DNA of 64,000 bases, taken from Xestospongia muta (taxonomy: Eukaryota; Porifera; Demospongiae; Haplosclerida; Petrosiidae). The number at the start of each line of letters is the position of its first letter. Position 1 is the first letter of the stretch. The notes under the pieces were generated by a model. That model was given only the letters and a program-made list of their open reading frames with translations. It made no database searches and was not told the DNA's origin. Below are positions 25,163 to 50,153 of this stretch, one piece after another. Position numbers and translations under genes: made by a program. The stretch lies in the NCBI GenBank assembly GCA_963693285.1, contig OY848917.1, forward strand, positions 23,504,245 through 23,568,244. The letters are read 5' to 3'.

Positions 25163-25202
25163 ACTCTGTTGAAGTTAGCAGCACATTCGTGCAGCAGCAC
25201 AT
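25163..25202. repeat. Terminal inverted repeat of B, left
   Basis: 40 bp, identical to 25320-25359 and to the reverse complements of 38304-38343 and 52655-52694. It contains the motif GCAGCACATTCGTGCAGCAG. Confidence 0.5.
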
Positions 25203-25310
25203 TCCTCAGGTACTAGATAACCACGCCTTATTAAATATTTGTGGTTTCAAGTATTTTTGATAGGGTGGAGCTGCAGTTGCTGTTCGCTGTATACTGAAAA
25301 CTTACAACAA

Positions 25311-25319
25311 CATTGTGTG
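25311..25319. repeat. Target-site duplication of element A, left
   Basis: CATTGTGTG, exact copy at 38344-38352. The uninterrupted homologous site within element A itself (near 38185, reverse complement) reads GATTGTGTG, which confirms that A landed inside B sequence. Confidence 0.5.
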
Positions 25320-25359
25320 ACTCTGTTGAAGTTAGCAGCACATTCGTGCAGCAGCACAT
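25320..25359. repeat. Terminal inverted repeat of A, gene end
   Basis: 40 bp. Two further copies of a TG(C/T)TGCTGCA core lie just inside, at about 25386-25397 and 25424-25434; these are candidate transposase-binding sites. Confidence 0.5.
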
Positions 25360-25615
25360 ACTTGTAGGCGGACCTTAAAACCGCGGTATGTGTTGCTGCA
25401 CTTAATGTACATTCCTCATTTGAATGTGCTGCTGCAGAAGCCTAATTAATGTCCCATCACCACATGACACTGCAACAAGGAAACTTGTGTTATTTTGAAA
25501 AGAAGTCTGAAGGTCAGTGTTTTTGTTAGAACACGTAAGAAGATTTAGAAGCATATAATTTACAAATGAACTATTTTTCAATAAGTTGCTTAATCTAAAA
25601 TCAATAATTTTGTGT
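25360..25615. promoter_or_regulatory. Subterminal region of A, gene end
   Basis: Between the terminal repeat and the stop of the protease gene. It carries clustered TGCTGCTGCA-like motifs, including a GC-rich piece (GGACCTTAAAACCGCGG), and must also contain the 3' end of the transcript. The same motifs occur at the right end of B (52560-52655). Confidence 0.5.
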
Positions 25616-28600
25616 TTATATACAGGGAAGTTGTTTTTGTAGAAGGCACTTAACAGCTATTTCGTATGAAAAGTGAAATTTCTCCATTATTAACAAAGTG
25701 AGAACCTACAAGTATAATTCAATGAGGTTATGTCTTGTAATTATTATCTGGAATTACCTCTGGCCAGATGATTGATTTCATAAAATCACTTAAATAGAAT
25801 GCAGGTTTTTTTAGACAATCACTCACCAAAGCAAGTAAATAATAATCAATTTCCATTAGCTACATGAAACTTGTATGAAATAATTGTTTGTTAGACTGAT
25901 ATTCTCACCATATCATCAAGGTCAATTGGCCAGCCATCATCTAAATACTTCACTTTACCAAAATCACTGCAACATTCTCCATTTATTAATTGTCTGATTG
26001 TGTGCTGTTTGTATATCATAAACACATGATTTTTTAAATTTTAAATGATAATTGTAAACATACTTCATTTGCTTTGATTGTTGTTCTAATGAACCTTCTT
26101 GTAAATATGCTGTCACTGATAGAATGATAGAGTATTAGATATAGTATTCACATATATGAATAACATACTGATCTGATTTGTCACGTCTAAAATTCGGATA
26201 ACTTTTAAGGTAAAACTCCTTGCCCCATTTTTGTTTAGTACAAAAGATGTCATCCTTATCTGTTACTGGTTGAGATGTAAATGATGGAAGTAGTATGTCA
26301 TTGTCCTCTAAATCTTCTTCTAAATATCAATAAACATAGAATTTATAGAACTATATGCTTACGATCCATTATATAATTAACTTCATTTTCTCCATCACAA
26401 CCTAAAGTTAACAAAGATTGAAATTACAATCATTCAGTAATCATGTAGTTTATAATGTACCTGGGTTGACATAAGTTTTAATGGTTTCTACGTAATCTGG
26501 AGGAACATTTTCCATATGCACTTCTGCTACTGAACAGCTAGGAATTAACAGACAATGTATTAATATACATTATTTCATGGACAACATACCTTATTTTAAG
26601 GATCCACTTCTTGTAAGTTGTCAGCTATTTTTATAGATAATGTCAACATGTAATAAACAGTCTCTACCTCAAAATTATCCTCATCGTATGGTATTCTGAA
26701 ATAACTTGCCACATACTGTTAAATTTAATTATCTGATGTAAATGTTAAATCTTAGCTATGCTTTTCACATACCTTACATATATATACATTTCTGTACATG
26801 TCAGGGCATGTGTCCTTATGATTAAATATGTCAGGGTACCCATTTTTAATTAAATCGTTTACCAACCTTCACCACATTGATTTTCCAATTGTTATATCTT
26901 CTTGCTTCCTTCATTACTGTTGCCCTCCACGTAGCAACTGCTTTCCTGTAAGTTTGTCTCAATCATGTGCAGTATCACATGTGAATATACCTGAAAGTTT
27001 CAATGAGTTCATTTGCTTTATCACTTATTTTGTCATGAATAGTATATACCAATACATCCTTATTCTCATGTTGGCTGAACTGTAATAGATAAAGTGATGA
27101 TAGTGCATGTGTTTTATTAGTTTTCACTCACTAGAACCATGTCCTCTTCCAAAATAGGACAAATTATCAGGAATATCTCTCCATATCGTTGGTGTCCACT
27201 AGACCTCTGTTGTATATATGGTACATAGTCAAGACTTCTTCATTATAACTTACTTTCATGTAAAAACATGGATTCACTCTATCAAATTCTGACATGGATT
27301 TTCTTGTCATGCAAATTTGTAAGTCAGCACTGTTTATGACTTCAACATAACCCAAATCCTTTATAATAGAGTATTGTTCAAACATGACATATTTGATTAT
27401 TTCAATTACTGACTGTATAAAAGGTTTCAAATTTGTTGTTACTAATTGTCTTCAAAACATTTATAAAAAAGTATACTGTCTACATTTATTTGAGTGTATT
27501 ATTAATGATTAGGCATTTGAGATGGACTGTACCTTAGATGAAATAAATTTTTCACTGTTTGTTAATTCTTTTATGTCTTTTAAATTGAGGTTTACATCAT
27601 CCAATGACAACACAGTCAAACTATCGTCAATGGATAATATTGTTTTAAGTGCCAAACCATTGCTCTTATTCAGTGGGATTTTGTGGGTATTAATAACTGA
27701 CATTTCTGATTGCATTGTTTCACTTGTCTCTGTTTTGGTGTTAACTACTAAATAGAACAAACTGGAATGGAATGTTTTGTGTTTAACAACTCACAATTAG
27801 AGTTAAAGTGTACTGGTGGAAATTCATTATCATCATCACTGTTGCTTTCAGACATAGTGTACAAAACTGGTTATCAATAAGAAATGACTTATCTAAGCAT
27901 TTTGTGTGAATCACTAACTTTCTTGCTTTTGAAGATTATTTAGCTCCAACAAGATCATTGTTCGAGCTATTTGAGCTTCACTCTATGATTTATGTAACCT
28001 GTCTATGCAAGTAGGCATTTTTTACACTTACTTCTTTAAAATTTAATTTTCTCTTCTCGATGAAACACTTTGCTGCCTGTAAACGTAAATGAACATTATA
28101 CAAGTTAATGAAGTCTTACCATGCAGACAAATACCCCACAATCACAGGCATTACTCTGTGTTGGACTGTTGCACATCTATGGATGTACAAGTACTATAAA
28201 AATGAATTAGTGTAACATACTTTGGAATCACAGTATCTCCACTCACGAATGGATAGTTTAAACTTTGACAGTCTACACAAATATAGCCTGCTTTTTTCAA
28301 ATGTTATCTTATGCAATAATTCCTTACCATATGCTATTAATTAAATGAGGCCGACTATTATGATATGAATCGACTTCATATATGATCTTATCATTTACAT
28401 CAACAACCTGTGTAATTAATGTATCCCAAACATATATTATGTTGATTAAGGCACTGACAATGAGAATCCAATGTTGTGGACGATGAACTGGAAATATGAT
28501 CATGTCTTTCTCTAACAGATTTTTGCCCTAGAATTTATTACTTTTTGTTTAATTTTAAAGTTATAAAATCCTTACATATTTTGTGACACCACTAAAGCCT

Positions 28601-30855
28601 CTTGCTTTTAATAATGGAAGGAATATGGAGTCGACAACAGCAATATTCCTCTAGTTTTAACAATTTCTGTGACATGCATGTAAAATTATTTGACTTACAT
28701 CCTTTGCTAACAATATTAAGTAATTCATTATTACCTACACAAGTAGATACTATTATATAATATATACAATAATTATATATGTATATGTATACTTATGTGT
28801 GTGTATGTATATATAATAATTTATGAATACATATATATAGTTTACTTCTGCAGTTAGCCACACTCCTGGCTGTAAGGTGTTGTACGGTGCCTTGATCTCT
28901 TTCCAGTCCTTTATCATATATATAGAATAAATTCTTTGCTAGCAATGCACTTACTATTTCCTTGTCTTCATTAACAACTAATGGACTCTGATAGAAATAT
29001 ATTGTAACAGTAAAGCATGCACATTTTAACAACAGACTGACTTCTCTCCATGATAAAATTGGTGGACAATCATCAATCGCTTCCAATACGGTCTATACAA
29101 GTTTAGTTAGTATAATCAATTACAATATGTATTATGTGATATGAAATAATTTCATACTAACCTCCGACTCATCCGACTTGTATATAGCTAGACATACATT
29201 TCTCTAAGAGGCAATCATAATGATGTATTGTTTTCATTAGCTTTACTCACAGAAATATAGTCTATATTTTTGTTGTAATCATAGTTAGTAATTATGTTAT
29301 TGTCATCATATTCAATCCACTCTCCACCAGGTGTTTTCACTAATGCTGTGTCTATTGTTTTTGTTTGTTTTAATATAGGTAACTTATAGCTGTATAATAA
29401 CTTACAGTGACCTGTGTCTACAGATGTTGGACGTCCATGATGAACCTACACAGCGATAGGATTAAATGGAAACTTTCATTGTAATCAGTACTAACAGCTA
29501 TTCCAAGTAATCGGTAAGTTCTTGAGGTGTAATCATGTTTGGTAGTATTTTCAATTGTAATTGTCCTATTAGATATAATGTCAGATTGATTACATTGCTT
29601 ACAACTTACTCTTGTAGCAACAATGGCTGGTTTGATTTTTTACTTGAATATGTGTTTCGAGAAATGCCTAGTATCTGTACATCTGGTAGTGAAGCAACAT
29701 TTGTGCTAACAGTCATTAGACGTTCATTGCAAGGTATGCATCTGTAAGCTTTATTATGACATTATTGTTTACAATATATAGCTTACAAATGATGGGATGT
29801 TTCATCTGAGTAGCAAGATATTTTCTTTCGCCACAATTCTGATATACAGTCTTCTTTTTGTCCAACCACTGAAATTAATAGTATTTTTGTGTACTCTTCT
29901 CCAACATATATCTAATTGTTAATATAAACAACACTGTCATCGTCACAATAACAGACCTCCTTGCAGATAGGACATTGTTTCTTAGTGATTGTATGTATGT
30001 TAAACAGTTTCTGTTTATTAGACAAACATTCTTAGTAGATTACAGTTGTACATTGCTTAAATCTCCATTACCTGCATTGATTGAACACTAACAGCATCAA
30101 TAAGTAATTCTATTCCTTCTATTACATCATTCTGGCCACCAAAAGCTATGTGTGTTGATGTCATCAATGCCTATTAAATTACATAAATCATATCATATTG
30201 CCTGAAATAAATGAATACTGTTATCATCTGTGAATTAGCAACGTTATCTTCTACTGTGCACTCAATGTTTAAGTATTCTTTTTGGACTGGTGTTAATTCC
30301 ACTTGTGGTATACCTATTATAATAATTCATCAATACTTCAAAGTTTGGGGTTTCTAATTACCACATAGATGTTTTGCCAGGGGGGTTACATGCAATAACT
30401 GGAGGACGCTGTTTATCCAACATAGGTTGCTGGTTTCATTTCCAAAACCCTTGTTGGGTGTATAGCATAACTCCAGTGGCGCTCCAGTCTCATAGATCTG
30501 TCATATATATACAAACACCTTGTCAAAGATGAGTGTTTATTAACTCACAGGTGTTGATGGTAACAACCAAGGTTGAAAAGATGTTATAATGACATCATCA
30601 TCATCATCATTGTGTTCATCACTCCTAGAGAATTTCAACTTTTCACTATCATTAATGACTTCTTGTTTTTCCTGCATTAAAGTGAGTACATAGTACATTA
30701 AACACTTAATTAATCATACATTGCATTCTACGGACAATGTTTCATCACAGCCTCCCCTATAGGAGATTATAATATGTATTTGTGTAAATATCGTTAGTCA
30801 TCTGACTTTGGTTTGATGGACACTTGAGATGATTTTGTATTGCTAAATTCATCAT
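25616..30855 (-). CDS. USP-Ulp1 double protease of transposon A (39 exons, 1048 residues)
   Basis: Spliced by hand, all junctions agree in phase: 30824-30855, 30720-30756, 30549-30671, 30362-30497, 30219-30313, 30072-30170, 29935-30010, 29787-29868, 29610-29741, 29496-29565, 29406-29445, 29251-29351, 29162-29203, 28955-29092, 28846-28890, 28699-28734, 28576-28650, 28459-28527, 28328-28407, 28221-28287, 28120-28176, 28032-28076, 27919-27982, 27795-27866, 27533-27747, 27254-27412, 27132-27206, 26991-27079, 26867-26945, 26773-26814, 26668-26715, 26590-26609, 26461-26537, 26363-26401, 26169-26319, 26064-26115, 25909-26004, 25758-25859, 25616-25705. Residues about 65-355 are a USP (C19) fold: Cys box NLCWINSVLQLL (Cys90), GGQNDVIEGIELL as the QQDAHEF-like motif, CPIC and CIPC zinc pairs, and His box GHYTALVKTPGGEWIEYDD (His307, Asp323/324). 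Residues about 400-580 are Ulp1 (C48): GVWLTAEVIMNYL, HW (His472), EVDS (Asp489), Gln532 and DCG (Cys538). Residues 580-1048 match nothing I know. Start is the first of two ATGs, 34 bp after the transposase stop. Two internal stops are avoided only by splicing (donors near 27918 and 26667). Confidence 0.5.
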
Positions 30856-30889
30856 ATTGGGACCTAAGTGAGAAAACTGAAAGTTATCT

Positions 30890-33800
30890 CTAAACATATT
30901 TCTGTGCATACAGCAATATAAAATCCTTCTTTGGAGGCTTTTGGTAGTGACCCATTAGGTTTTGTCCTGGCTTCTTAGATCTTTTTGACCACTTCTCCTC
31001 AAGCAGTTTTGTTTTTGGTTTATCTAGCTGTTTCTGAATACATGTATATATATATATATATTGTATATATAGACAAATAATGTACTTTACCTTTAGCCTC
31101 TGTCTGTCTTTAGTAGAAACATTGTCAATATAAGCCAGCTGCCTTCCAAAGTGAATTGAGTAGTGCTCCTTTAAAAAAAGATCTGGTCGCTTTCTGTGCT
31201 TTGGATGGTCACTTCTTTTCAATATGAGGTTCCAGGCCTCAATTGTTCCAGCAGTTCGATTTCTGCTTGTTGACATATCTCCTGAATTAACACTCCTCAG
31301 TATATTTGTCCAAAAAGGAACCATAGACAACCATTTCCGTTCCATTGTTTCGATCCATTTAGGTTGAAAAATTGGGTTTGGAGGACATGTTTTGTCAGTA
31401 CAATACTTCAAACTTGACAACTTTTGCTTAAAAAAAGCAAAGAATGGCTTCTTACATGATGAAAGGATCATTGCTTCTTCTGAATTGGTAGTACTTTCCA
31501 GTATATTCTCTGCTAGCTCTTCGTTAATGTTGTCAATGTTGCTGTCGATTAACTGGGGAACCTCTCCAAGTTTTTTGAAAGTATCTTCAAGCTCATTAAT
31601 TGCACATTGCACTTCATTGTTGACATACTCCGAGCCAAAGATTAGAGCACATCTCTTGAGATTTATTAAAAAAATTTCAATTGATGTAGAATTTAACAAA
31701 ACTGAAAAGCAGTACATTGAGAAGCTGTACTGCTCTTTTATGGCACTAAAGTAATGTAAATATACTAACAAATTGTATGCTGTGATAAACTTACAACAAT
31801 TTTTTCATGTCATACTTGGCACTCTTCATAACATGACTTATGCATGCATGTACGAAACACTTGTTGAAATCTGAGCTTGTTGAGCACCTGTTTGCCACAC
31901 GAAAACAGCGGTGTAAATAATCTGATAATGTCTCCAAGTTAAAAACTCTTAAAAAGCTGAGAAGAAGGACTAGGCTTCTATCAATAATGATGTACTTAGG
32001 AACAACGATGTTTTGATGCCCATACAACAATGCTTCATGTCGTCGGAAGTCTTCAAGAAAATGGGAAATGGCCATTACAGAATGCTCTGTCGAAATAAGT
32101 TCAGCCACAGCAATAGGTGGCTGACCTTTCTTTGGGTGTCCAACAACAAGAGCATAGTATAAGGATGTGTTAGACTCATAGTCAGTACCCTTTAAACTAA
32201 TAACTGTACCTGTCGCATCCAAGTACAAAACTTGGTCTTTGGCAAAATTGTGATATATTCTTACTCCTTCCTCAGTAAAGAAAGAAACACTAAATGGTTT
32301 TGCTACAATCCGTTGAATGTATCCGCAAATGTTTCTTTTGCAGCCAAAGGATTCTGTGATCTCTTTGTCTATAACTTTCAGAGACATAACAAGATCCAAG
32401 TGTGGAAATTGGTCTCTTTGACCCTCTGATGAAATTTTTCGAAGAACGTGCTGACTACTGCCAACCTTGTCCCTCTTTCCTGACTCCAGCTCTGCTAACG
32501 TTAAAGACGAAAACTTTTTGTTATAAAGACAAGATGGTGTTAAGGAAAGTACTTCTGTTTTGGCAATTGTTCTATTGCTTGAGCGTATTTGCCTGGATCG
32601 TCTCTCGTCTGTGGCATGCTTAACGAAGGGGGATGTAAAATTTATAAAGACATTTAATGTTATTGGAGGATTACTCTGACAAAAGGACATTATCTTGAGA
32701 TGAAACTGTACAGGGCAATCAGTAAATGTACACTTTCCTGAACAACGAAATGAATAATGAGATGACTTTCTTGAATGTTTTCTTTTCATCCAACGGTTTT
32801 TCATAGCAAAAGAGCAGTATGGATTGTGAGGAGACAGAATATTGATGATTGGGTTTTGCCAGTCAGTCTTAGTAGATAACTCTGGCCATATACTTGATGG
32901 TATGGTAGTCATCACATTTGCAGGAACTGAAGCATAAAAGAAACGACTGTTTTGATTCCCTCCTATAGTTGACATCTACATAATAATAGACAATGCTTTT
33001 GAGTTTGAGTAGATGCAGCATATTTTACCTGAAGTTGTCGTTCAGTCCAGTATGCAGGCGAAACAATGAAACTAGGCAACTCTTTCCTTTCCTGTTTTAT
33101 TGTAATAGTATCCTCTTAAAAATGAACTTTTCACATACCTGCTGTTCTCCAAATGCCAGTTCAAGAGCTCTCTTTTGTGGATGTTCTATTTTGAAGTTTG
33201 TATGTATGTAGCACGTTTCCAATTTCAAACTTACCTTCTTCATACATAAGTTCATCCATCCCTTTACTAATGCATACTTGACATTTATATGTATCAATGC
33301 CTTTTGCTAAGACATCATCAATACCTACACAATCATAATGATACCAATCTCCACAATAATCACACATGATCATGTCCCTAGCAGGAAATAAAAAGTTAAC
33401 ATTGAAAAATTATGTATACATAATATAAACACACACATATATACCTAGTCTCATCATATCTTTTTTTGCATATGCAGTATATTGTTGTAGAACCCTATTA
33501 TGTTTTATGTAAGAAATGTTACAACAGCGCTTTTAGACTTACAAATAAAGATGCTGTTGAAGAGAGAGGAGTGACAACATTGGTAGTCTATAAATGTCCA
33601 GGTAAACATTTCATGTCATTAACATAATTATAATTTACTATGGTGTCATAACAGAGAGAGAGGGAAGTTTCTTTTGTGGCAACAGCCTACATGTTATACA
33701 AGTACATGTCAAAGTCAATGCATCATTTCCTTAATCTTACATGATTGGAATTATGAGTACACGATAATACTGTGTTTCGGATTGAATATGAACATAACTT

Positions 33801-34660
33801 GTCATCCTATTAAGAATGGTTCATGGACAATTTGAACTAGTTTATGACACTTACGGAAAGTTGTTCAAATGTATTATTAATAAGCAATGATGTGTCTGCA
33901 TGTTTGTGAAGGCCATCTTGTGTTGGAGAGTTAGCTTGCATCAGCTCAGTGATAATGTGAGTGTCCTATTTTAAATCGTTAATAACTGCACATGTCATCT
34001 ACAGGTCCACTTACTGTGTTGAGACATTGTTGGGGTGAAGTAGTAACTTGTGATACCTTAGGGAGAGTATAATCATCCTATATTAAATACTTAACTGTAC
34101 CTTGTTATTACATGTCTACTTACCTTGTTGAGACATTGTTGGGGTGAAGTAGTAGCTTGCGATTTATTAGGGAGAATATATCCATCCTATTATATATATA
34201 TTAACTATATTATGTCATCTACAGGTCCACTTACTGTGTCAAGGCCTTGTTGAGGTGAAGTTGCAGTAGCAACAGGAGTAGCTTGATAGTTGGTAATCTA
34301 TATAATATAGTTGAAGATAATGATGTATGTACATTTATATAGAAAGTGCATGTATGTGTCATATAAATATGCTATATATCTGTTATCTTACCAGCTTTAT
34401 GATATTAGTCCTGAAGTTGTTTACATTTTTATACCAATGATTGCTTACAGCTTTGATAAGTCTTGGCGATGGATTGGTTTTACCACATGCACTGATTGCG
34501 GCCTGGACCCAATAGCCATGTCCTTTGCAGGACGCTTTTTTTGGTGGAAGCCCATTTAGACAAATGTAATTAGCAAGAGCATTACTGTTAACATGAAACT
34601 TCACTTTGGGCGGCTAAAGAAAAAGAAAAGCAACGATTACATACATGCATTCCTTACCAT
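30890..34660 (-). CDS. PHD-finger MULE-like DDE transposase of transposon A (14 exons, 950 residues)
   Basis: Exons: 34658-34660 (ATG alone), 34392-34613, 34235-34297, 34124-34186, 34015-34077, 33855-33965, 33543-33587, 33445-33494, 33235-33377, 33139-33185, 33029-33091, 31795-32975, 31091-31745, 30890-31033. Phases agree and the sum is 951 codons. Residues about 196-242 are a C4HC3 PHD finger (YCIC, CDYCGDWYHYDC, CQVC). About 369-383 is a C-x3-C-x4-C-x4-H cluster that may bind DNA. The catalytic core reads VLYLDATG (Asp544), YIIIDRS (Asp623), the CxxH motif CFVH (664-667) between second Asp and Glu as in MULE and hAT transposases, and GTIEAWNLILKR (Glu854). Three consecutive 63-bp exons (34015-34297) are copies of one another with the motif TSPQQ. 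It would bind the 40-bp ends and make the 9-bp staggered insertions. The one-codon first exon is inferred from an ATG sitting on a GTAAGG donor; the alternative is a start further upstream. Confidence 0.5.
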
Positions 34661-34704
34661 GCTATCCACTTAGTTATAAGAAACAGGATATTGAAGGTTA
34701 GAAA
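34661..34704 (-). promoter_or_regulatory. 5' leader of the transposase gene abutting the repeat array
   Basis: Only about 45 bp separate the proposed start codon from the first (diverged) 153-bp repeat, so the promoter must lie in this leader or in the array. I see no clear TATA box. Confidence 0.5.
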
Positions 34705-37700
34705 AATGTAAACAATAATATCATATTCAAGTGTCTCAAGTTAGTATAAATACTATCGTCAGTTGTTATGATGTGGGTGTGACTTTCTCGGCCAGCAATA
34801 AGACCATTTATTCATTTTTTAGTACATTTCTTTTTATTGCTGGCTATTGAGAGTACAGATGTAAATGACAATATTATATTCAAGTGTGTCAAGTTAGTGC
34901 AAACACTATCGTCAGTTGTTTTGATGTGGGCGTATCTTCCTCGCCCAGCAATAAGACCATTTGTTCATTTTTTAGTACATTTCCTCTTATTGCTGGCTAT
35001 TGAGACTTTGAATGTAAACGGCAACATGATATTCAAGTGTGTCAAGTTAGTGCAAATACTATCGTCAGTTGTTTTGATGTGGGTGTGTCTTCCTCGCCCA
35101 GCAATAAGACCATTTATTCATTTTTTAATACATTTATTCTTATTGCTGGCTATTGAGAGTACAGATGTAAATGACAATATGATATTCAAGTGTGTCAAGT
35201 TAGTGCAAACACTATCGTCAGTTGTTTTGATGTGGGCGTATCTTCCTCGCCCAGCAATAAGAACATTTGTTCATTTTTAGTACATTTCCTCTTATTGCTG
35301 GCTATTGAGACTTTGAATGTAAACGGCAACATGATATTCAAGTGTGTCAAGTTAGTGCAAATACTATCGTCAGTTGTTTTGATGTGGGCGTATCTTCCTC
35401 GCCCAGCAATAAGACCATTTGTTCATTTTTTAGTACATTTCCTCTTATTGCTGGCTATTGAGACTTTGAATGTAAACGACAACATGATATTCAAGTGTGT
35501 CAAGTTAGTGCAAATACTATCGTCAGTTGTTTTGATGTGGGTGTGTCTTCCTCGCCCAGCAATAAGACCATTTATTCATTTTTAGTACATTTCTTTTTAT
35601 TGCTGGCTATAGAGACTTCGAATGTAAATGACAATATGATATTTAAGTGTGTCAAGTTAGTGCAAATACTATCGTCAGTTGTTTTGATGTGGGCGTGTCT
35701 TCCTCGCCCAGCAATAAGACCATTTGTTCATTTTTTAGTACATTTCTTCTTATTGCTGGCTATTGAGAGTACAGATATAAATAACAATATGATATTCAAG
35801 TGTGTCAAGTTAGTGCAAATACTATCGTCAGTTGTTTTGATGTGGGCGTGTCTTCCTCGCCCAGCAATAAGACCATTTGTTCATTTTTTAGTACATTTCT
35901 TCTTATTGCTGGCTATTGAGAGTACAGATGTAAATAACAATATGATATTCAAGTGTGTCAAGTTAGTGCAAATACTATCGTCAGTTGTTTTGATGTGGGC
36001 GTATCTTCCTCGCCCAGCAATAAGACCATTTGTTCATTTTTTAGTACATTTCCTCTTATTGCTGGCTATTGAGACTTTGAATGTAAACGACAACATGATA
36101 TTCAAGTGTGTCAAGTTAGTGCAAATACTATCGTCAGTTGTTTTGATGTGGGTGTGTCTTCCTCGCCCAGCAATAAGACCATTTATTCATATTTAGTGCA
36201 TTTCTTCTTATTGCTGGCTATAGAGACTTTGAATGTAAATGACAATATGATATTTAAGTGTGTCGAGTTAGTACAAATACTATCGTCAGTTGTTTTGATG
36301 TGGGCGTGTCTTCCTCGCCCAGCAATAAGACCATTTGTTCATTTTTTAGTACATTTCTTCTTATTGCTGGCTATTGAGAGTACAGATGTAAATGACAACA
36401 TGATATTCAAGTGTGTCAAGTTAGTGCAAATACTATCGTCAGTTGTTTTGATGTGGGTGTGTCTTCCTCGCCCAGCAATAAGACCATTTATTCATTTTTT
36501 AATACATTTATTCTTATTGCTGGCTATTGAGAGTACAGATGTAAATGACAATATGATATTCAAGTGTGTCAAGTTAGTGCAAATACTATTGTCAGTTGTT
36601 TTGATGTGGGTGTGTCTTCCTCGCCCAGCAATAAGACCATTTATTCATTTTTGGTACATTTCTTCTTATTGCTGGCTATAGAGACTTCGAATGTAAATGA
36701 CAATATGATATTTAAGTGTGTCAAGTTAGTGCAAATACTATCGTCAGTTGTTTTGATGTGGGCGTGTCTTCCTCGCCCAGCAATCAGACCATTTGTTCAT
36801 TTTTTAGTACATTTCTTCTTATTGCTGGCTATAGAGACTTTGAATGTAAATGACAATATGATATTTAAGTGTGTCAAGTTAGTGCAAATACTATCGTCAG
36901 TTGTTTTGATGTGGGCGTGTCTTCCTCGCCCAGCAATAAGACCATTTGTTCATTTTTAGTACATTTCTTCTTATTGCTGGCTATAGAGACTTCGAATGTA
37001 AATGACAATATGATATTTAAGTGTGTCAAGTTAGTGCAAATACTATCGTCAGTTGTTTTGATGTGGGTGTGTCTTCCTCGCCCAGCAATCAGACCATTTG
37101 TTCATTTTTTAGTACATTTCTTCTTATTGCTGGCTATAGAGACTTTGAATGTAAATGACAATATGATATTTAAGTGTGTCAAGTTAGTGCAAATACTATC
37201 GTCAGTTGTTTTGATGTGGGCGTGTCTTCCTCGCCCAGCAATAAGACCATTTGTTCATTTTTTAGTACATTTCTTCTTATTGCTGGCTATTGAGAGTACA
37301 GATGTAAATGACAATATTATATTCAAGTGTATCAAGTTAGTGCAAATACTATCGTCAGTTGCCTTGATGTGGGCGTATCTTCCTCGCCCAGCAATAAGAC
37401 CATTTGTTCATTTTTTAGTACATTTCCTCTTATTGCTGGCTATTGAGAGTACAGGTGTAAATGACAATATGATATTCAAGTGTGTCAAGTTAGTGCAAAT
37501 ACTATCGTCAGTTGTTTTGATGTGGGTGTGTCTTTCTTGCCCAGCAATAAGACCATTTGTTCATTTTTCAGTACATTTCTTCTTATTGCTGGTTATTGAG
37601 AGTACAGATGTAAATGACAATATGATATTCAAGTATGTCAAGTTAGTGCAAATACTATCGTCAGTTGATTTGATGTGGGTGTGTCTTCCTCGCCCAGCAA

Positions 37701-37755
37701 TAAGACCATTTGTTCATTATTTAGTACATATCCTTTTAATGCTTGTTATTATGAC
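34705..37755 (+). repeat. 153-bp tandem array of element A (about 20 units)
   Basis: The conserved text GTCAGTTGTTTTGATGTGGG recurs every 153 bp (for example at 34911 and 35064), with occasional units changed by one or two bases in a T run. Each unit contains CCAGCAATAAGA and, about 28 bases on, its exact complement TCTTATTGCTGG, so every unit can form a 12-bp hairpin. Because 153 is a multiple of three, long open frames run through the array (51-residue period, reading LPRPAIRPFVHF). They are broken wherever the T run changes length, have no common start and run against the gene strand, so I do not call them genes. Confidence 0.5.
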
Positions 37756-38303
37756 TTTTTGAATGTAAACTGTTGTAATGATCTATATTAAGAAATCACA
37801 TTGAATAATGGTGTCATCTTTGTATATGACAAACCATTATAATTTTATATTTGCATGCAAGAGTGTTAAACTTGTCACTGTGAGATGAACTTAAACTATC
37901 TGTGTCAATTTAGTAATAAAAGTCACGTAAATATTTATAATAACCTAACTTTTTAGACTTGTTTGCAAAAAATCTAGTATAAGGAATTAAGGCCAAGTTT
38001 TGCTGGAGGCCAGTGCCTGTAGTGCTAGTTTTATTGATTATTTATGCTAACAATTTCATGCTAAAAATTTTGTTCTTAAAATATAAAAAGTAATTGATTA
38101 CAATTTATTAAACAAAGTATTTTGAAAGGATTTAATTGGCTATCATTTATAATATATTAACTAAATGGATTGAATTTTCTGTTCTACACACAATCTTGTT
38201 GTAAGTTTTCAGTATACAGCGAACAGCAACTGCAGCTCCACCCTATCAAAAATACTTGAAACCACAAATATTTAATAAGGCGTGGTTATCTAGTACCTGA
38301 GGA
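37756..38303. other. Unique inner arm of A at the array end
   Basis: About 430 bp (37760-38190) pairs as an imperfect inverted copy with 38353-38744 of B, because A and B are the same family in opposite orientation. 38190-38303 matches the reverse complement of 25203-25310, the left end of B. Long AT runs, no coding frame. Confidence 0.5.
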
Positions 38304-38343
38304 ATGTGCTGCTGCACGAATGTGCTGCTAACTTCAACAGAGT
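38304..38343. repeat. Terminal inverted repeat of A, array end
   Basis: Exact reverse complement of 25320-25359; ends CTTCAACAGAGT. Confidence 0.5.
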
Positions 38344-38352
38344 CATTGTGTG
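38344..38352. repeat. Target-site duplication of element A, right
   Basis: CATTGTGTG, identical to 25311-25319. Confidence 0.5.
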
Positions 38353-38744
38353 TAGTACAGAACATTCCATCCGTTTAGTTAATATATTATAAATGATAGC
38401 CAATTAATTCCTTTCAAAATACTTTGTTTAATAAATTGTAATCAATTATTTAAGAACAACATTTTTAGCATGAAATTGTTAGCATAAATAATCAATAAAA
38501 CTAGCACTACAGTCACTGGCCTCCAGTAAAACTTGCCCTTAATTCCTTACACTAGATTTTTTGCAAACAAGTCTAAAAAGTTAGGTTATTATAAATATTT
38601 ACGTGAATTTTATTACTAAATTGAAACAGATAGTTTAAATTCACCTCACAGTGACAAGTTTAACACTCTTGCATGCAAATATAAAATTATAATGGTTTGT
38701 CATATACAAAGATGACACCATTATTCAATATGATTTCTTAATAT
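38353..38744. other. Unique inner arm of element B
   Basis: Continuation of B after the inserted A. Its reverse complement matches 37760-38190 with substitutions and small indels, giving a direct measure of divergence between the two elements outside the repeats. No gene. Confidence 0.5.
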
Positions 38745-41700
38745 ACCAACTAACTGATGATAGTATTTGCACTAACTTGACACACTTGAATATCATATTG
38801 TCATTTACATCTGTACTCTCAATAGCCAGCAATAAGAAGAAGTGTACTAAAAAATGAATAAATGGTCTTATTGCTGGGCGAGGAAGACACACCCACATCA
38901 ACTCAACTGACGATAGTATTTGCACTAACTTGACACACTTGGATATCGTATTGTCATTTACATCTGTACTTTCAATAGCCAGCAATAAGAAGAAATGTAT
39001 TGAAAAATGAACAAATGGTCTTATTGCTGGGCGAGGAAGACACACCCACACCAACTCAACTGACGATAGTATTTGCACTAACTTGACACACTTGATTATC
39101 ATATTGTCACTTACATTCAAAGTCTCCATAGCCAGCAATAAGAGGAAATGTACTAAAAAATGAACAAATTGTCTTATTGCTGGGCGAGGAAGACACACCC
39201 ACATCAAATCAACTGACAATAGTATTTGTACTAACTTGACACACTTGAATATTGTATTGTCGCTTACATTCAAAGTCTCTATAGCCAGCAATAAGAGGAA
39301 ATGTACTAAAAAATGAACAAATGGTCTTATTGCTGGGCGAGGAAGACACACCCACATCAAAACAACTGACGATAGTATTTGCACTAACTTGACACACTTG
39401 AATATCATATTATCATTTACATCTGTACTCTTAATAGCCAGCAATAAGAAGAAATGTACTAAAAAAATGAATAAATGGTCTTATTGCTGGGCGAGGAAGA
39501 CACACCCACATCAAAACAACTGACGATAGTATTTGCACTAACTTGACACACTTGAATTTTGTATTGTCACTTACATTCAAAGTCTCTATAGCCAGCAATA
39601 AGAGGAAATGTACTAAAAAATGAACAAATGGTCTGATTGCTGGGCAAGGAAGACACACCCACATCAAAACAACTGACGATAGTATTTGTACTAACTTGAC
39701 ACACTTGAATTTCGTATTGTCACTTACATTCAAAGTCTCTATAGCCAGCAATAAGAGGAAATGTACTAAAAAATGAATAAATGGTCTTATTGCTGGGCGA
39801 GGAAGACACACCCACATCAAAACAACTGACGATAGTATTTGCACTAACTTGACACACTTGAATTTTGTATTGTCACTTACATTCAAAGTCTCTATAGCCA
39901 GCAATAAGAGGAAATGTACTAAAAAATGAACAAATGGTCTTATTGCTGGGCGAGGAAGACACACCCACATCAAATCAACTGACGATAGTATTTGCACTTA
40001 CTTGACACACTTGAATATCATATTGTCATTTACATCTGTACTCTCAATAGCCAGCAATAAGAAGAAATGTACTAAAAAATGAATAAATGGTCTTATTGCT
40101 GGGCGAGGAAGACACACCCACATCAAAACAACTGACGATAGTATTTGCACTAACTTGACACACTTGAATTTCGTATTGTCACTTACATGCAAAGTCTCTA
40201 TAGCCAGCAATAAGAGGAAATGTACTAAAAAATGAATAAATGGTCTTATTGCTGGGCGAGGAAGACACACCCACATCAAAACAACTGACGATAGTATTTG
40301 CACTAACTTGACACACTTGAATTTTGTATTGTCACTTACATTCAAAGTCTCTATAGCCAGCAATAAGAGGAAATGTATAAAAAATGAACAAATGGTCTTA
40401 TTGCTGGGCGAGGAAGACACACCCACATCAAATCAACTGATGATAGTATTTGCACTAACTTGACACACTTGAATATCATATTGTCATTTACATCTGTACT
40501 CTCAATAGCCAGCAATAAGAAGAAATGTACTAAAAAATGAATAAATGGTCTTATTGCTGGGCGAGGAAGACACACCCACATCAAAACAACTGACGATAGT
40601 ATTTGCACTAACTTGACACACTTAAATATCATATTGTCATTTACATCTGTACTCTCAATAGCCAGCAATAAGAAGAAATGTACTAAAAAAATGAATAAAT
40701 GTCTTATTGCTGGGCGAGGAAGACACACCCACATCAAAACAACTGACGATAGTATTTGCACTAACTTGACACACTTGAATTTTGTATTGTCACTTACATT
40801 CAAAGTCTCTATAGCCAGCAATAAGAGGAAATGTACTAAAAAATGAACAAATGGTCTTATTGCTGGGCGAGGAAGACACACCCACATCAAATCAACTGAC
40901 GATAGTATTTGCACTTACTTGACACACTTGAATATCATATTGTCATTTACATCTGTACTCTCAATAGCCAGCAATAAGAAGAAGTGTACTAAAAAATGAA
41001 TAAATGGTCTTATTGCTGGGCGAGGAAGACACACCCACATCAACTCAACTGACGATAGTATTTGCACTAACTTGACACACTTGGATATCGTATTGTCATT
41101 TACATCTGTACTCTCAATAGCCAGCAATAAAAAGAAATGTATTGAAAAATGAACAAATGGTCTTATTGCTGGGCGAGGAAGACACACCCACACCAACTCA
41201 ACTGACGATAGTATTTGCACTAACATGACACACTTGATTATCATATTGTCACTTACATTCAAAGTCTCCATAGCCAGCAATAAGAGGAAATGTACTAAAA
41301 AATGAACAAATTGTCTTATTGCTGGGCGAGGAAGACACACCCACATCAAATCAACTGACAATAGTATTTGTACTAACCTGACACACTTGAATATTGTATT
41401 GTCGCTTACATTCAAAGTCTCTATAGCCAGCAATAAGAGGAAATGTACTAAAAAATGAACAAATGGTCTTATTGCTGGGCGAGGAAGACACACCCACATC
41501 AAAACAACTGACGATAGTATTTGCACTAACTTGACACACTTGAATATCATATTATCATTTACATCTGTACTCTTAATAGCCAGCAATAAGAAGAAATGTA
41601 CTAAAAAAATGAATAAATGGTCTTATTGCTGGGCGAGGAAGACACACCCACATCAAAACAACTGACGATAGTATTTGCACTAACTTGACACACTTGAATT

Positions 41701-44700
41701 TTGTATTGTCACTTACATTCAAAGTCTCTATAGCCAGCAATAAGAGGAAATGTACTAAAAAATGAACAAATGGTCTGATTGCTGGGCAAGGAAGACACAC
41801 CCACATCAAAACAATTGACGATAGTATTTGTACTAACTTGACACACTTGAATTTCGTATTGTCACTTACATTCAAAGTCTCTATAGCCAGCAATAAGAGG
41901 AAATGTACTAAAAAATGAATAAATGGTCTTATTGCTGGGCGAGGAAGACACACCCACATCAAAACAACTGACGATAGTATTTGCACTAACTTGACACACT
42001 TGAATTTTGTATTGTCACTTACATTCAAAGTCTCTATAGCCAGCAATAAGAGGAAATGTACTAAAAAATGAACAAATGGTCTTATTGCTGGGCGAGGAAG
42101 ACACACCCACATCAAATCAACTGATGATAGTATTTGCACTTACTTGACACACTTGAATATCATATTGTCATTTACATCTGTACTCTCAATAGCCAGCAAT
42201 AAGAAGAAATGTACTAAAAAATGAATAAATGGTCTTATTGCTGGGCGAGGAAGACACACCCACATCAAATCAACTGATGATAGTATTTGCACTTACTTGA
42301 CACACTTGAATACCATATTGTCATTTACATCTGTACTCTCAATAGCCAGCAATAAGAAGAAATGTACTAAAAAATGAATAAATGGTCTTATTGCTGGGCG
42401 AGGAAGACACACCCACATCAAAACAACTGACGATACTATTTGCACTAACTTGACACACTTGAATATCATATTGTCATTTACATCTGTACTCTCAATAGCC
42501 AGCAATAAGAAGAAATGTACTAAAAAAATGAATAAATGGTCTTATTGCTGGGCGAGGAAGACACACCCACATCAAATCAACTGACGATAGTATTTGCACT
42601 AACTTGACACACTTGATTATCATATTGTCACTTACATTCAAAGTCTCCATAGCCAGCAATAAGAGGAAATGTACTAAAAAATGAACAAATCGTCTTATTG
42701 CTGGGCGAGGAAGACACACCCACATCAAAGCAACTGACAATAGTATTTGTACTAACTTGACACACTTGAATATCGTATTGTCACTTACATTCAAAGTCTC
42801 TATAGCCAGCAATAAGAGGAAATGTACTAAAAAATAAACAAATGGTCTTATTGCTGGGAGAGGAAGACACACCCACATCAAATCAACTGACAATAGTATT
42901 TGTACTAACTTGACACACTTGAATATCATATTGTCACTTACATTCAAAGTCTCTATAGCCTACAATAAGAGGAAATGTACTAAAAAATAAACAAATGGTC
43001 TTATTGCTGGGCGAGGAAGACACACCCACATCAAAACAACTGACGATAGTATTTGCACTAACTTGACACACTTGAATTTTGTATTGTCACTTACATTCAA
43101 AGTCTCTATAGCCAGCAATAAGAGGAAATGTATAAAAAATGAACAAATGGTCTTATTGCTGGGCGAGGAAGACACACCCACATCAAATCAACTGATGATA
43201 GTATTTGCACTAACTTGACACACTTGAATATCATATTGTCATTTACATCTGTACTCTCAATAGCCAGCAATAAGAAGAAATGTACTAAAAAATGAATAAA
43301 TGGTCTTATTGCTGGGCGAGGAAGACACACCCACATCAAAACAACTGACGATAGTATTTGCACTAACTTGACACACTTAAATATCATATTGTCATTTACA
43401 TCTGTACTCTCAATAGCCAGCAATAAGAAGAAATGTACTAAAAAAATGAATAAATGGTCTTATTGCTGGGCGAGGAAGACACACCCACATCAAATCAACT
43501 GACGATAGTATTTGCACTAACTTGACACACTTGATTATCATATTGTCACTTACATTCAAAGTCTCCATAGCCAGCAATAAGAGGAAATGTACTAAAAAAT
43601 GAACAAATGGTCTTATTGCTGGGCGAGGAAGACACACCCACATCAAAAGAACTGACGATAGTATTTGCACTAACTTGACACACTTGAATTTTGTATTGTC
43701 ACTTACATTCAAAGTCTCTATAGCCAGCAATAAGAGGAAATGTACTAAAAAATGAACAAATGGTCTTATTGCTGGGCGAGGAAGACACACCCACATCAAA
43801 TCAACTGACGATAGTATTTGCACTTACTTGACACACTTGAATATCATATTGTCATTTACATCTGTACTCTCAATAGCCAGCAATAAGAAGAAGTGTACTA
43901 AAAAATGAATAAATGGTCTTATTGCTGGGCGAGGAAGACACACCCACATCAAATCAACTGACGATAGTATTTGCACTTACTTGACACACTTGAATATCAT
44001 ATTGTCATTTACATCTGTACTCTCAATAGCCAGCAATAAGAAGAAATGTATTGAAAAATGAACAAATGGTCTTATTGCTGGGCGAGGAAGACACACCCAC
44101 ACCAACTCAACTGACGATAGTATTTGCACTAACATGACACACTTGATTATCATATTGTCACTTACATTCAAAGTCTCCATAGCCAGCAATAAGAGGAAAT
44201 GTACTAAAAAATGAACAAATTGTCTTATTGCTGGGCGAGGAAGACACACCCACATCAAATCAACTGACAATAGTATTTGTACTAACTTGACACACTTGAA
44301 TATTGTATTGTCGCTTACATTCAAAGTCTCTATAGCCAGCAATAAGATGAAATGTACTAAAAAATGAACAAATGGTCTTATTGCTGGGCGAGGAAGACAC
44401 ACCCACATCAAAACAACTGACGATAGTATTTGCACTAACTTGACACACTTGAATATCATATTATCATTTACATCTGTACTCTTAATAGCCAGCAATAAGA
44501 AGAAATGTACTAAAAAAATGAATAAATGGTCTTATTGCTGGGCGAGGAAGACACACCCACATCAAAACAACTGACGATAGTATTTGCACTAACTTGACAC
44601 ACTTGAATTTCGTATTGTCACTTACATTCAAAGTCTCTATAGCCAGCAATAAGAGGAAATGTACTAAAAAATGAACAAATGGTCTGATTGCTGGGCAAGG

Positions 44701-46345
44701 AAGACACACCCACATCAAAACAATTGACGATAGTATTTGTACTAACTTGACACACTTGAATTTCGTATTGTCACTTACATTCAAAGTCTCTATAGCCAGC
44801 AATAAGAGGAAATGTACTAAAAAATGAATAAATGGTCTTATTGCTGGGCGAGGAAGACACACCCACATCAAAACAACTGACGATAGTATTTGCACTAACT
44901 TGACACACTTGAATTTTGTATTGTCACTTACATTCAAAGTCTCTATAGCCAGCAATAAGAGGAAATGTACTAAAAAATGAACAAATGGTCTTATTGCTGG
45001 GCGAGGAAGACACACCCACATCAAATCAACTGATGATAGTATTTGCACTTACTTGACACACTTGAATATCATATTGTCATTTACATCTGTACTCTCAATA
45101 GCCAGCAATAAGAGGAAATGTACTAAAAAATGAACAAATGGTCTTATTGCTGGGCGAGGAAGACACACCCACATCAAATCAACTGACGATAGTATTTGCA
45201 CTTACTTGACACACTTGAATTTCGTATTGTCACTTACATTCAAAGTCTCTATAGCCAGCAATAAGAGGAAATGTACTAAAAAATGAACAAATGGTCTGAT
45301 TGCTGGGCAAGGAAGACACACCCACATCAAAACAATTGACGATAGTATTTGTACTAACTTGACACACTTGAATTTCGTATTGTCACTTACATTCAAAGTC
45401 TCTATAGCCAGCAATAAGAGGAAATGTACTAAAAAATGAATAAATGGTCTTATTGCTGGGCGAGGAAGACACACCCACATCAAAACAACTGACGATAGTA
45501 TTTGCACTAACTTGACACACTTGAATATCATGTTGTCGTTTACATTCAAAGTCTCAATAGCCAGCAATAAGAGGAAATGTACTAAAAAATGAACAAATGG
45601 TCTTATTGCTGGGCGAGGAAGATACGCCCACATCAAAACAACTGACGATAGTATTTGCACTTACTTGACACACTTGAATATCATATTGTCATTTACATCT
45701 GTACTCTCAATAGCCAGCAATAAGAAGAAATGTACTAAAAAATGAATAAATGGTCTTATTGCTGGGCGAGGAAGACACACCCACATCAAAACAACTGACG
45801 ATAGTATTTGCACTAACTTGACACACTTGAATATCATATTGTCATTTACATCTGTACTCTCAATAGCCAGCAATAAGAAGAAATGTACTAAAAAATGAAT
45901 AAATGGTCTTATTGCTGGGCGAGGAAGACACACCCACATCAAATCAACTGACGATAGTATTTGCACTAACTTGACACACTTGATTATCATATTGTCACTT
46001 ACATTCAAAGTCTCCATAGCCAGCAATAAGAGGAAATGTACTAAAAAATGAACAAATCGTCTTATTGCTGGGCGAGGAAGACACACCCACATCAAAGCAA
46101 CTGACGATAGTATTTGTACTAACTTGACACACTTGAATATCGTATTGTCACTTACATTCAAAGTCTCTATAGCCAGCAATAAGAGGAAATGTACTAAAAA
46201 ATAAACAAATGGTCTTATTGCTGGGAGAGGAAGACACACCCACATCAAATCAACTGACGATAGTATTTGTACTAACTTGACACACTTGAATATCATATTG
46301 TCATTTACATTCAAAGTCTCCATAGCCAGCAATAAGAGGAAATTT
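38745..46345 (-). repeat. 153-bp tandem array of element B (about 50 units) with higher-order structure
   Basis: Same 153-bp unit as in A, in the opposite orientation. Two main unit variants alternate (one reading IESTDVND, one reading IETLNVSD in the long frame). Blocks recur as higher-order repeats: 38725-39997 is repeated at a shift of 2142 bp (14 units), and again about 2909 bp further (about 19 units). This shows growth by unequal exchange of multi-unit blocks. The hairpin motif is present in almost all units. Confidence 0.5.
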
Positions 46346-46544
46346 TACAACTACTAGACATAAATAATAACAAGAACAGTTGAGAGAACATAACATTTGA
46401 CTTTTTATAATATACATGGTTGTTCATCAATCAATTAATTAATCAAAGATACAACCTACACAATCCACAACATGTAGTACATTCATGTAAAATTATGACT
46501 GTCTCATTTTAACTGTTCTATTAATGGGAAACGTTTGAGGGTTA
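46346..46544. other. Deletion junction in B
   Basis: About 200 bp of AT-rich sequence without homology to A lies between the array and the surviving tail of the transposase core. In A the corresponding space (31925-34700) holds the PHD exons and most of the DDE core, so B lost about 2.8 kb here and gained filler DNA. Confidence 0.5.
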
Positions 46545-47345
46545 CAGACTATTTACAGCGCTGTTTTCATGTGGCAAACAGGTGCTCAACAAGCTCAGAT
46601 TTCAACAAGTGTTTTGTACACGCAAGCATAAGTCATGTTCTAAAGAGTGCCAAGTATGACATGAAAAAATTGTTGTAAGTTGATCACAGCATACAATTTG
46701 TTTGTATATTTTCATTACTTTAGTGTCATAAAAGAGCAGTACAGCTTCTCAATGTACTGCTTTTCAGTTTTGCTAAATTCTACATTAATTGAAACTTTTT
46801 TAATAAATCTCAAGAGATGTGCTCTAATCTTTGGCTCGGAGTATGTCAACAATGAAGTGCAATGTGCAATTAATGAGCTTGAAGATACTTTCAAAAAACT
46901 TGGAGAGGTCCCCCAGTTAATCGACAGCAACACTAACAACATTAACGAAGAGCTAGCAGAGGATATACTGGAAATTACTACCAATTCAGAAGAAGCAATG
47001 ATCCTTTCATCGTGTCAGAAGCCATTCTTTGCTTCTTTAAAGCAAACGTTGTCAAGTTTGAATATTGTACTGACAAAACATGTCCTCCAAACCCAATTTT
47101 TCAACCTAAATAGATCAAAACAATGGAACAGAAATGGTTGTCGATGGTTCCTTTTTGGACAAATATACTGAGGAGTGTTAATTCAGGAGATATGTCAACA
47201 AGCAGCAAATGAACTGCTGGAACAATTGAGGCCTGGAACCTCATATTGAAAAGAAATGACCATCCAAAGCACAGAAAACGACCAGATCTTTTTTTAAAGG
47301 AGCACTACTCAATTCACTTTGGAAGGCAGCTGGTTATATTGACAA
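46545..47345 (+). pseudogene. Transposase remnant of element B
   Basis: Corresponds to the last 40 codons of exon 12 (31795-31925 of A) and to exon 13. The frame is open through SCQKPFFASLKQ, then shifts by one base near 47065; it has a stop at about 47109 (TAG) and another at 47209 (TGA in place of an Arg codon just before T-A-G-T-I-E-A-W). The first two catalytic acids and the PHD finger are gone; the Glu region remains. The final exon is also deleted (junction near 47345-47370). Confidence 0.5.
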
Positions 47346-47399
47346 TGTTTCTACTAAAGACAGACACAGGCTATCCATCAAACCAAAGTCAGATGACTA

Positions 47400-50105
47400 A
47401 CGATATATACATACATATTATAATCTCCTATAGGGAAGGCTGTGATGAAACATTGTCCGTAGAATGCAATGTATGATTAATTAAGTGTTTAATGTACTAA
47501 GTTCTCACTTTAATAAAAAGTCATTAATGATAGTGAAAAGTTGAAATTCTCTAGGAGTGATGAACACAATGATGATGATGAAGATGTCATTATAACATCT
47601 TTTCAACCTTGGTTGTTACCATCAACACCTGTGAGTTAATAAACACTCATCTTTGAGAAGGTGTTTGTATATATATGACAGATCTATGAGACTGGAGTGC
47701 CACTGGAGTTACGTTATACACCCAACAAGGGTTTTGGAAATGAAACCAGCAACCTATGTTGGATAAACAGTGTCCTCCAGTTATTGCATGTAACCCCCCT
47801 AGCAAAACATCTATGTGGTAATTAGAAACCTCAAACTTTGAAGTATTGATGAATTATTTTAATAGGTATACCACAAATGGAATTAACACCAGTCCAAAAA
47901 GAATACTTAAACATTGAGTGCACAGTAGAAGATAACGTTGCTAATTCACAGATGATAACAGTATTCATTTATTTCAGGCAATATGATATGATTTATGTAA
48001 TTTAATAGGCATTGATGACATCAACACCTATAGAGTTTGGTGGCCAGAATGATGTAATAGAGGGAATAGAATTACTTGTTGATGCTGTTAGTGTTCAATC
48101 GATGCAGGTAATGGAGATGTAAGCAATGTATAACTGTAATCTATTAAGAATGTTTGTCTAATAAACAGAAACTGTTTAACATACATACAATCACTGAGAA
48201 ACAATGTCCTATCTGCAAGGAGGTCTGTTATTGTGATGATGACAGTGTTGTTTATATTAACAATTAGATATATGTTGGAGAAGAGTACACAAAAATACTA
48301 TTAATTTCAGTAGTTGGACAAAAAGAAGACTGTATATCAGAATTGTGGTGGAAGAAAATATCTTGCTACTCAGATGAAACATCCCATCATTTGTAAGCTA
48401 TATATTGTGGACAATAATGCCATAATAAAGCCTACAGATGCATACCTTCAATGAATGTCTAATGACTGTTAGCACAAATGTTGCTTCACTACCAGATGTA
48501 CAGATACTAGGCATTTCTCGAAACACATATTCAAGTAAAAAATCAAACCAGCCATTGTTGCTACAAGAGTAAGTTGTAAGCAATGTAATCAATCTGATAT
48601 TATATCTAATAGGACAATTACAATTGAAAATACTACCAAACATGATTACACCTCAAGAACTTACAGATTACTTGGAATAGCTGTTAGTACTGATTACAAT
48701 GAAAGTTTCCATTTAATCCTGTCACTATGTAGGTTCATCATGGACATCCAACATCTGTAGATACAGGTCACTGTAAGTTATTATACAGTTATAAGTTACC
48801 TATATTAAAACAAAAACAATAGACACAGCATTAGTGAAAACACCTGGTGGAGAGTGGATTGAATATGATGACAATAACATAATTACTAACTATGATTACA
48901 ACAGAAATATAGACTATATTTCTGTGAGTAAAGCTAATGAAAACAATACATCATTATTATTGCCTCTTAGAGGAATGTATGTCTAGCTATATACAAGTTG
49001 GATGAGTCGGAGGTTAGTATGAAATTATTTCATATCACATAATACATATTGTAATTAATTATACTAACTAAACTTGTATAAACCGTATTGAAAGTGATTG
49101 ATGATTGTCCACCAATTTTATCATGGAGAGAAGCCAGTCTGTTGTTAAAATGTGCATGCTTTACTGTTATAATATTTCTATCAGAGTCCATTAGTTGTTA
49201 ATGAAGACAAGGAAATAGTAAGTGCATTGTTATCAAAGAATTTATTCTATATATATGATAAAGAACTGGAAAGAGATCAAGGCACCGTACAAAACATTAC
49301 AGCCAGGAGTGTGGCTAATTGCAGAAGTAAACTATATATATATATTCATAAATTATTATATATACATACACACACATAAGAATACATATACATATACATA
49401 TATAATCATTGTATATATTATATAATAGTATCTACTTGTGTAGGTAATAATGAATTACTTAATATTGTTAGCAAAGGATGTAAGTCAAATAATTTTACAT
49501 GCATGTCAAAGAAATTGTTAAAACTGGAGGAATATTGCTGTTGTCGACTACATATTCCTTCCATTATTAAAAGCAAGAGGCTTAGTGGTGTTACAAAATA
49601 TGTAAGGATTCTATAACTTTAAAAAAGTACAAAAAGTAATAAATTCTAGGGCAAAAATCTGTTAGAGAAAGACATTTAATTAATAGCATATGGTAAGGAA
49701 TTATTGCATAAGATAACATTTGAAAAAAGCAGGCTATATTTGTGTAGACTTTAAAAGTTTAAACTATCCATTCGTGAGTGGAGATACTGTGATTCCAAAG
49801 TATGCTACACAAATTCATTTTTATGGTACTTGTACATCCATAGATGTGCAACAGTCCAACACAGAGTAATGCCTGTGATTGTGGGGTATTTGTCTGCATG
49901 GTAAGACTTCATTAACTTGTATAATGTTCATTTACGTTTACAGGCAACAAAGTGTTTCATCAAGAAGAGAAAATTAAATTTTAAAGAAGTAAGTGTAAAA
50001 AATGCCTACTTGCATAGGCAGGTTACATAAATCATAGAGTGAAGCTCGAATAGCTCGAACAATGATCTTGTTGGAGCTAAATAATCTTCATAAGCAAGAA
50101 AGTTA
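47400..50105 (+). pseudogene. USP-Ulp1 remnant of element B
   Basis: All USP landmarks survive in readable form (Cys box at about 47740-47775, His box exons near 48735-48880), and most splice sites match A. The Ulp1 part is destroyed: at about 49674 the exon reading G-K-N-L-L-E-K-D is joined directly to the end of the next exon, removing the catalytic His and Asp. The preceding exon has lost its AG acceptor (CTGG for CTAG) and one base (AGGCTTAGTGG). The DCG cysteine exon (49845-49900) is still present. Confidence 0.5.
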
Positions 50106-50153
50106 GTGATTCACACAAAATGCTTAGATAAGTCATTTCTTATTGATAACCAG

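Follow-up and report, generated by a model that had tools for sequence, protein, structure and literature searches.

Can a DNA transposon encode, within one protein, the enzymes for removing both ubiquitin and SUMO? The question is raised by a 64,000-nucleotide stretch of the Xestospongia muta genome (contig OY848917.1, positions 23,504,245 to 23,568,244 of the forward strand; hereafter the window, from whose first letter positions are counted unless another contig is named), in which an earlier sequence-only reading had proposed a transposon-borne fusion of a USP deubiquitinase and a Ulp1 SUMO protease. A spliced frame on the minus strand at 27914-30863 encodes a complete USP followed by a Ulp1/SENP domain. 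Joining 24 exons between 30855 and 27914 gave a first frame of 563 amino acids; an earlier model of 598 amino acids matched the Pfam profiles UCH (E 5.7e-19) and C48 (E 1.6e-15). In the final model of 1566 amino acids, whose numbering is used below, UCH (PF00443) was matched with E 3.4e-18 and 66.6 bits (cut-off 23.9) and Peptidase_C48 (PF02902) with E 2.5e-19 and 70.4 bits (cut-off 20.7), so that the profile search suggested with the proposal placed both families far above cut-off in one spliced frame. The USP (peptidase C19) domain occupies the exons from 30497 to 29162 (Pfam match at residues 1076-1324), a linker at 28955..29092 contains no in-frame methionine, and the Ulp1/SENP (peptidase C48) domain with the stop codon lies at 27914..28908 (residues 1397-1551); the introns of this part are mostly 40-70 nt long with GT-AG borders. 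In a sequence search of the PDB, the Ulp1/SENP part aligned with SENP2 (E 1.1e-12). The USP part gave weaker matches to solved USPs (best E 2.6e-6; USP15 4.6e-5, USP36 6.9e-5, USP14 2.2e-4), aligned around the His and Asp boxes. Both proteases are almost certainly encoded in one frame inside a transposon.

The canonical residues that had been read for both families are present: C1080, H1304 and D1320/D1321 with the zinc pairs C1177/C1180 and C1225/C1228 in USP, and H1457, D1474, Q1517 and C1523 in Ulp1. The Ulp1 spacings are identical to those given before (His-Asp 17, His-Gln 60, His-Cys 66), whereas the USP Cys-His distance is 224 residues, 7 longer than the 217 claimed. Both proteases are probably catalytically active. 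Within 30362-30497, five residues before the USP cysteine (residue 85 in the numbering of the first model), the window copy carries Glu, whereas the four other intact copies have Gln; its own USP may therefore be impaired.

The frame lies within a well-delimited mobile element. An inner, younger copy of 13,024 bp (25320..38343, sense strand minus) has identical 40-bp inverted ends (ACTCTGTTGAAGTTAGCAGC...) and is flanked by the 9-bp target duplication CATTGTGTG at 25311-25319 and 38344-38352. It was inserted 148 bp from the end of an older, outer element belonging to the same family (25163..52694, unstranded; its own pieces are 25163-25310 and 38353-52694), for which the 9-bp duplication reads CACCCAACT (25154-25162 and 52695-52703). 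The body of the outer copy is 95.5-97% identical to the inner one, with deletions, and its protease frame is broken; the decayed protease-side part lies at 46545..52694 on the plus strand. When the genome (158 Mb in 28 contigs) was searched at the DNA level with 27914-30855, 49 matching rows were obtained, including eight that span the entire query at 92-100%; the 147-bp end sequence matched 52 rows, 21 of them full length. A perfect 9-bp duplication flanks five of the seven elements tested: the two nested copies, the element C2:359900-369400 (duplication CATTAGGAG) and two of another four, the remaining two lacking one. The proposal that the proteases are transposon-borne is thus upheld by target duplications and multiple copies. 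Two full-length copies on contig C8 without matching duplications share one 3' flank (3' ends L071 and L073), which suggests segmental duplication or recombination.

We then asked whether the proteases form one polypeptide with the transposase. An intrinsic splice search, using codon use and splice signals only, joined position 34660 to Ulp1 in one frame; two exons were split by homology and the end was closed at the TAG ending at 27914. The resulting predicted gene (27914..34660, minus strand; splice search, homology and Pfam) has 40 exons and encodes an N-terminal region, a PHD finger, a DDE transposase, USP and Ulp1, in this order. Its first exon, of 3 bases, is uncertain, and the N-terminal region contains repeats encoded by a 109-bp tandem. 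The PHD finger (residues 235-280; 33235..33494, minus strand; PF00628, E 6.4e-8) has PHF2 (E 3.7e-14), PHF8 and BPTF as its closest solved relatives in the PDB, and the PHD fingers of these proteins read H3K4me3. The main transposase exon (31795..32975, minus strand) comprises a WRKY-like N-terminal part and an RNase H-like core with D582 and D661, and the C-terminal transposase exons follow at 30912..31745 on the same strand. Two junction exons, 30863-30807 and 30756-30720 (30720..30863, minus strand), lead from the transposase to USP by way of the donor GTATGC (30911), an acceptor before 30863 and the donor GTCAGA (30806). These junction splice sites are kept in copies L039 (the window copy) to L044 and in L046, and GTCAGA is lost in the broken copy L045. 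The transposase-to-USP frame uses the GTCAGA donor in the correct phase, and there is no in-frame methionine from the junction to the USP cysteine or between USP and Ulp1. Because of the splice phase and the lack of a methionine, USP-Ulp1 most likely constitutes the C-terminal portion of the transposase, in a single predicted polypeptide arranged PHD-DDE-USP-Ulp1.

The best-surviving alternative is that the proteases form a separate accessory gene beside the transposase, with its own start at ATG 30855. This ATG can be spliced in frame, and the transposase acquires its own stop (30890-30892) upon intron retention. However, the ATG-30855 model requires a weak GTGTCC donor, which L046 has lost while keeping the transposase-to-USP sites, and the intrinsic splice search favours one gene. 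We therefore regard a separate gene as unlikely. The fusion proposed in the sequence-only reading stands as a fusion within a transposon but probably not as a gene of its own, and neither end of its span (27919..30855) was retained: the stop codon ends at 27914, and ATG 30855 is probably not the start.

Conservation among copies of the window family was examined. The USP-Ulp1 frame is open in five of the eight full-length copies (L039-L043), in which any gaps are multiples of three and the splice sites are preserved; it is not intact in the other three. All seven catalytic residues (USP Cys, His and Asp; Ulp1 His, Asp, Gln and Cys) are present in each of the five intact copies; Arg replaces the Gly following the Ulp1 cysteine in L041, and Leu replaces the Pro inside the second zinc pair in L043. 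In four of the eight (L039, L040, L041 and L043), the frame also runs uninterrupted from the C-terminus of the transposase across the junction, and the splice sites are preserved. A full-length transposase part is present in the window and at C8:1691040 (100%), and an almost full-length one at C7:5619140 (98%, query 140-3749). Transposase and protease parts are contiguous at C8:1691040-1697784 and C7:5616137-5622724, with the same 56-bp spacing as in the window; the C2 copy keeps the protease frame and lacks the transposase core.

Selection was assessed from the same alignments. The unique changes of the four young intact copies relative to the window comprise 27 nonsynonymous and 5 synonymous ones, which is not below neutral, with 0 stops against 1.9 expected. 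Across all 29 copies pooled, the nonsynonymous:synonymous ratio is 322:134, which amounts to 0.83 of the neutral rate calibrated on introns (p 0.077); stops number 30, where 29.2 were expected. These counts are near the neutral expectation; therefore copies decay freely, at a near-neutral rate, after insertion. Among changes common to the diverged copies L058-L060, nonsynonymous changes in USP are fewer than expected (39:31, with 74% expected; p 0.001), although six shared stops mean that part of this change postdates decay. Adding L068 gave 36:31 (p 0.0004), and the same test of USP in other groups gave p values of 0.43, 0.04 and 0.21. The Ulp1 part of the window family showed no nonsynonymous deficit (28:10, p 1.0). 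Within this family, the results suggest that USP is under constraint, and constraint on Ulp1 was not seen.

Of the 132 UCH matches in the genome, one at C8:1096787 sits in a repeat with 46 matching rows and revealed a second family. Its spliced frame (C8:1096781-1099036) encodes a full USP and then Ulp1, with UCH matched over the whole profile at E 5.8e-19, C48 at E 3.6e-13 and SENP1 at E 3.9e-14. The USP motifs are the Cys box SNCYASSVLQ, QDAHEYY, the zinc pairs, RHYSSF and YISDT; those of Ulp1 are YLTDEVI, CHWTLLV, YFDSY and LQTNGVDCGVF. All seven catalytic residues are present. Downstream lies a transposase of the Mutator-like element (MULE) profile PF10551 (E 2.7e-9, 37.8 bits, cut-off 27.6), obtained from two same-frame open reading frames joined across one stop; this stop in the transposase frame of the C8 copy may instead mark an unrecognised intron. 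The first of these open reading frames alone gave an RNase H-like match to ZSWIM1-3 (E 7.3e-9). A PHD-like finger further downstream scored just under its cut-off (E 4.6e-5, 23.8 bits against 24.0). Between the transposase and this finger, a SWIM-like motif was seen by eye only and was not matched by Pfam; likewise, a Death-domain-like stretch further upstream (region C8:1094600-1102600; L077, L074, L076 and L078) was noted by eye and has no Pfam match. USP, Ulp1 and MULE segments recur in the same order with near-equal spacing at five loci (C8:1.096, C6:4.18 and C1:8.90, 18.64 and 33.89 Mb), and a further five places have Ulp1 and MULE segments in this order with matches of only 65-78%. The proteins of the first and second families share 25% identity over 322 amino acids (E 8e-18), and their alignment stays collinear between the USP finger and the Ulp1 cysteine, spanning the boundary of the two domains. 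USP-Ulp1 follows the transposase in the window family and precedes it in the second.

A third, diverged family was recognised at one of these further five places, C1:12394400-12396600 (L079 and L080), where part of the locus was read: a USP Cys box, fingers, GRHYTCF and INDSS are followed by YLTDEV and HCHW. The USP Cys, His and Asp and the Ulp1 His are present, as far as the start of Ulp1, where the reading ended. The fusion is thus not unique to the window family: the second family and one locus of the third carry the tandem in the same genome. Judging from sequence comparison, the tandem appears to be a module that recurs among MULEs. The second family also bears on how the window family is classified. 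The window transposase itself has no match to the Pfam MULE profile PF10551, and its MULE label rests on the 9-bp duplications, a match to an RNase H-like fold and the comparison with the second family; its terminal inverted repeats and the 9-bp length of its target-site duplications are as in Mutator elements.

These data bear on the alternative that pieces of host USP and SENP genes were picked up as passengers and are decaying without a role. Such capture would fit the near-neutral decay of inserted copies and the lack of visible constraint on Ulp1 in the window family, and captured Ulp1 has a precedent in plant MULEs (PMC13317346). Against it stand the five intact copies, the nonsynonymous deficit of USP in one diverged group, and the fact that two families sharing only 25% identity have USP and Ulp1 in the same order and retain all seven catalytic residues. 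Since a same-order catalytic pair is found in such diverged families, on either side of the transposase, and again in a third, the passenger explanation is hard to defend and we consider it improbable.

Proteases of both families cleave after Gly-Gly, and the window copy reads KGG at the transposase-USP junction, as might be expected if the proteases cleaved a transposon polyprotein rather than host conjugates. However, L046, L050, L051 and L052 read Lys-Glu-Gly there, so KGG is not conserved, and this explanation is very unlikely. That a domesticated host USP-Ulp1 gene merely lies beside transposon remains is scarcely credible, since the frame is enclosed by the inverted ends and target duplications of the element and recurs in eight full-length copies, even though UCH and C48 matches occur elsewhere in the genome.

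Taken as a whole, the data are best explained, with somewhat better than even confidence, by a PHD-DDE-USP-Ulp1 transposase whose proteases strip ubiquitin and SUMO to protect or derepress the element. The PHD finger would dock the transposase on H3K4me3-marked open chromatin, and the DDE domain would cut and join DNA. The tethered USP and Ulp1 could then remove ubiquitin and SUMO, possibly as mixed SUMO-ubiquitin chains, either from the transposase or from host proteins of silencing and repair at donor and target sites, which would stabilise the complex and keep the element expressed. Most simply, the MULE-type elements of this host may employ a deubiquitinase and a deSUMOylase in combination when they transpose; for the proteases themselves, a role in protection or anti-silencing has about an even chance of being correct. 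A domesticated transposase that antagonises Polycomb offers a published parallel to anti-silencing (PMC4671723). More tentatively, such elements might form a class of self-contained, chromatin-modifying MULE-type transposases, in which a PHD finger reading active promoters and a DDE domain are combined with USP-Ulp1 against ubiquitin, SUMO and mixed chains deposited in host silencing or repair, and which would be kept across deeply diverged families as an escape from SUMO- and ubiquitin-dependent control. The tandem gives a testable protein and may reveal a SUMO- or ubiquitin-dependent silencing step in the host.

We compared the element with known systems. The catalytic domains align by sequence with those of SENP1/SENP2 and USP15-type USPs, which, to our knowledge, are separate host enzymes fused neither to each other nor to a transposase. 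Ubiquitin or SUMO proteases are already known singly on transposons, with their function unsettled in the available portions of the reports (PMC2836005, PMC13317346); a tandem that is apparently joined to the transposase and whose active sites are kept at 25% identity, with a PHD or PHD-like finger in each of the two families, argues that modifier removal matters to transposition. Prior art proved closer than had been recognised. PMC2836005 reports Ulp1 in Ginger1 and, from hydra, lancelet and plants, in Mutator elements, describes a Trichomonas protein with a transposase and Peptidase C19, and proposes a link of transposition with ubiquitin and SUMO. One Ginger1 family is listed there as having both Ulp1 and PHD, and alignments of Ulp1 and PHD from Ginger1 and Mutator transposases are named in a figure legend. 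Unlike the present element, Ginger1 has an integrase-like transposase, and the families tabled in that text carry OTU or Ulp1 (one unassigned), with neither a USP nor a USP-Ulp1 tandem (PMC2836005). The Trichomonas protein (XP_001314237.1) likewise joins a USP (C19) to a transposase; it differs, as described in the same portion of that paper, in its transposase_11 domain, and Ulp1 is unmentioned there. Plant MULEs with KAONASHI/ULP-like genes share the MULE-borne Ulp1 but are described with Ulp1 alone, encoded by one of the element's three coding genes (PMC13317346). Rehavkus, compared by its description, resembles the window element in the PHD finger of its transposase, a minisatellite, a 9-bp duplication and inverted ends; it differs in having one open reading frame, in its distribution in arthropods and annelids, and in that the accessible description mentions no protease (PMC6446971). 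Among the titles and abstract openings listed in the literature search, none concerned a transposon with a USP-Ulp1 tandem; Repbase reports and most subscription journals lay outside its coverage. As far as this search shows, the USP-Ulp1 tandem, its fusion to a transposase and its recurrence in several families are new.

Other features of the window were recorded. After Ulp1, a possible third reading frame of about 440 amino acids lies at 25616..27855 on the minus strand, with an uncertain splice model; its RTC4-like match (E 0.017) is under the family cut-off and no family was assigned with confidence. A splice from the protease frame into this frame is possible. In the Rehavkus description available, the minisatellite lies 'prior to the 3' TIR' (terminal inverted repeat), whereas that of the window element lies 5' of the transposase (PMC6446971): the inner element contains 20 copies of a 153-bp unit (34705..37757, minus strand), and the same minisatellite is present inverted in the outer element with 49.6 copies (38752..46343, plus strand), so its length differs greatly between the nested copies. 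Elsewhere, three related stretches are 78-94% identical (3521-4728, 7813-9012 and 21486-22506), the last of which overlaps an open reading frame (21730-22557, minus strand) for a cysteine-rich protein with hydrophobic ends. At 61521-62364, five near-identical 169-bp units (99%) are arranged in tandem.

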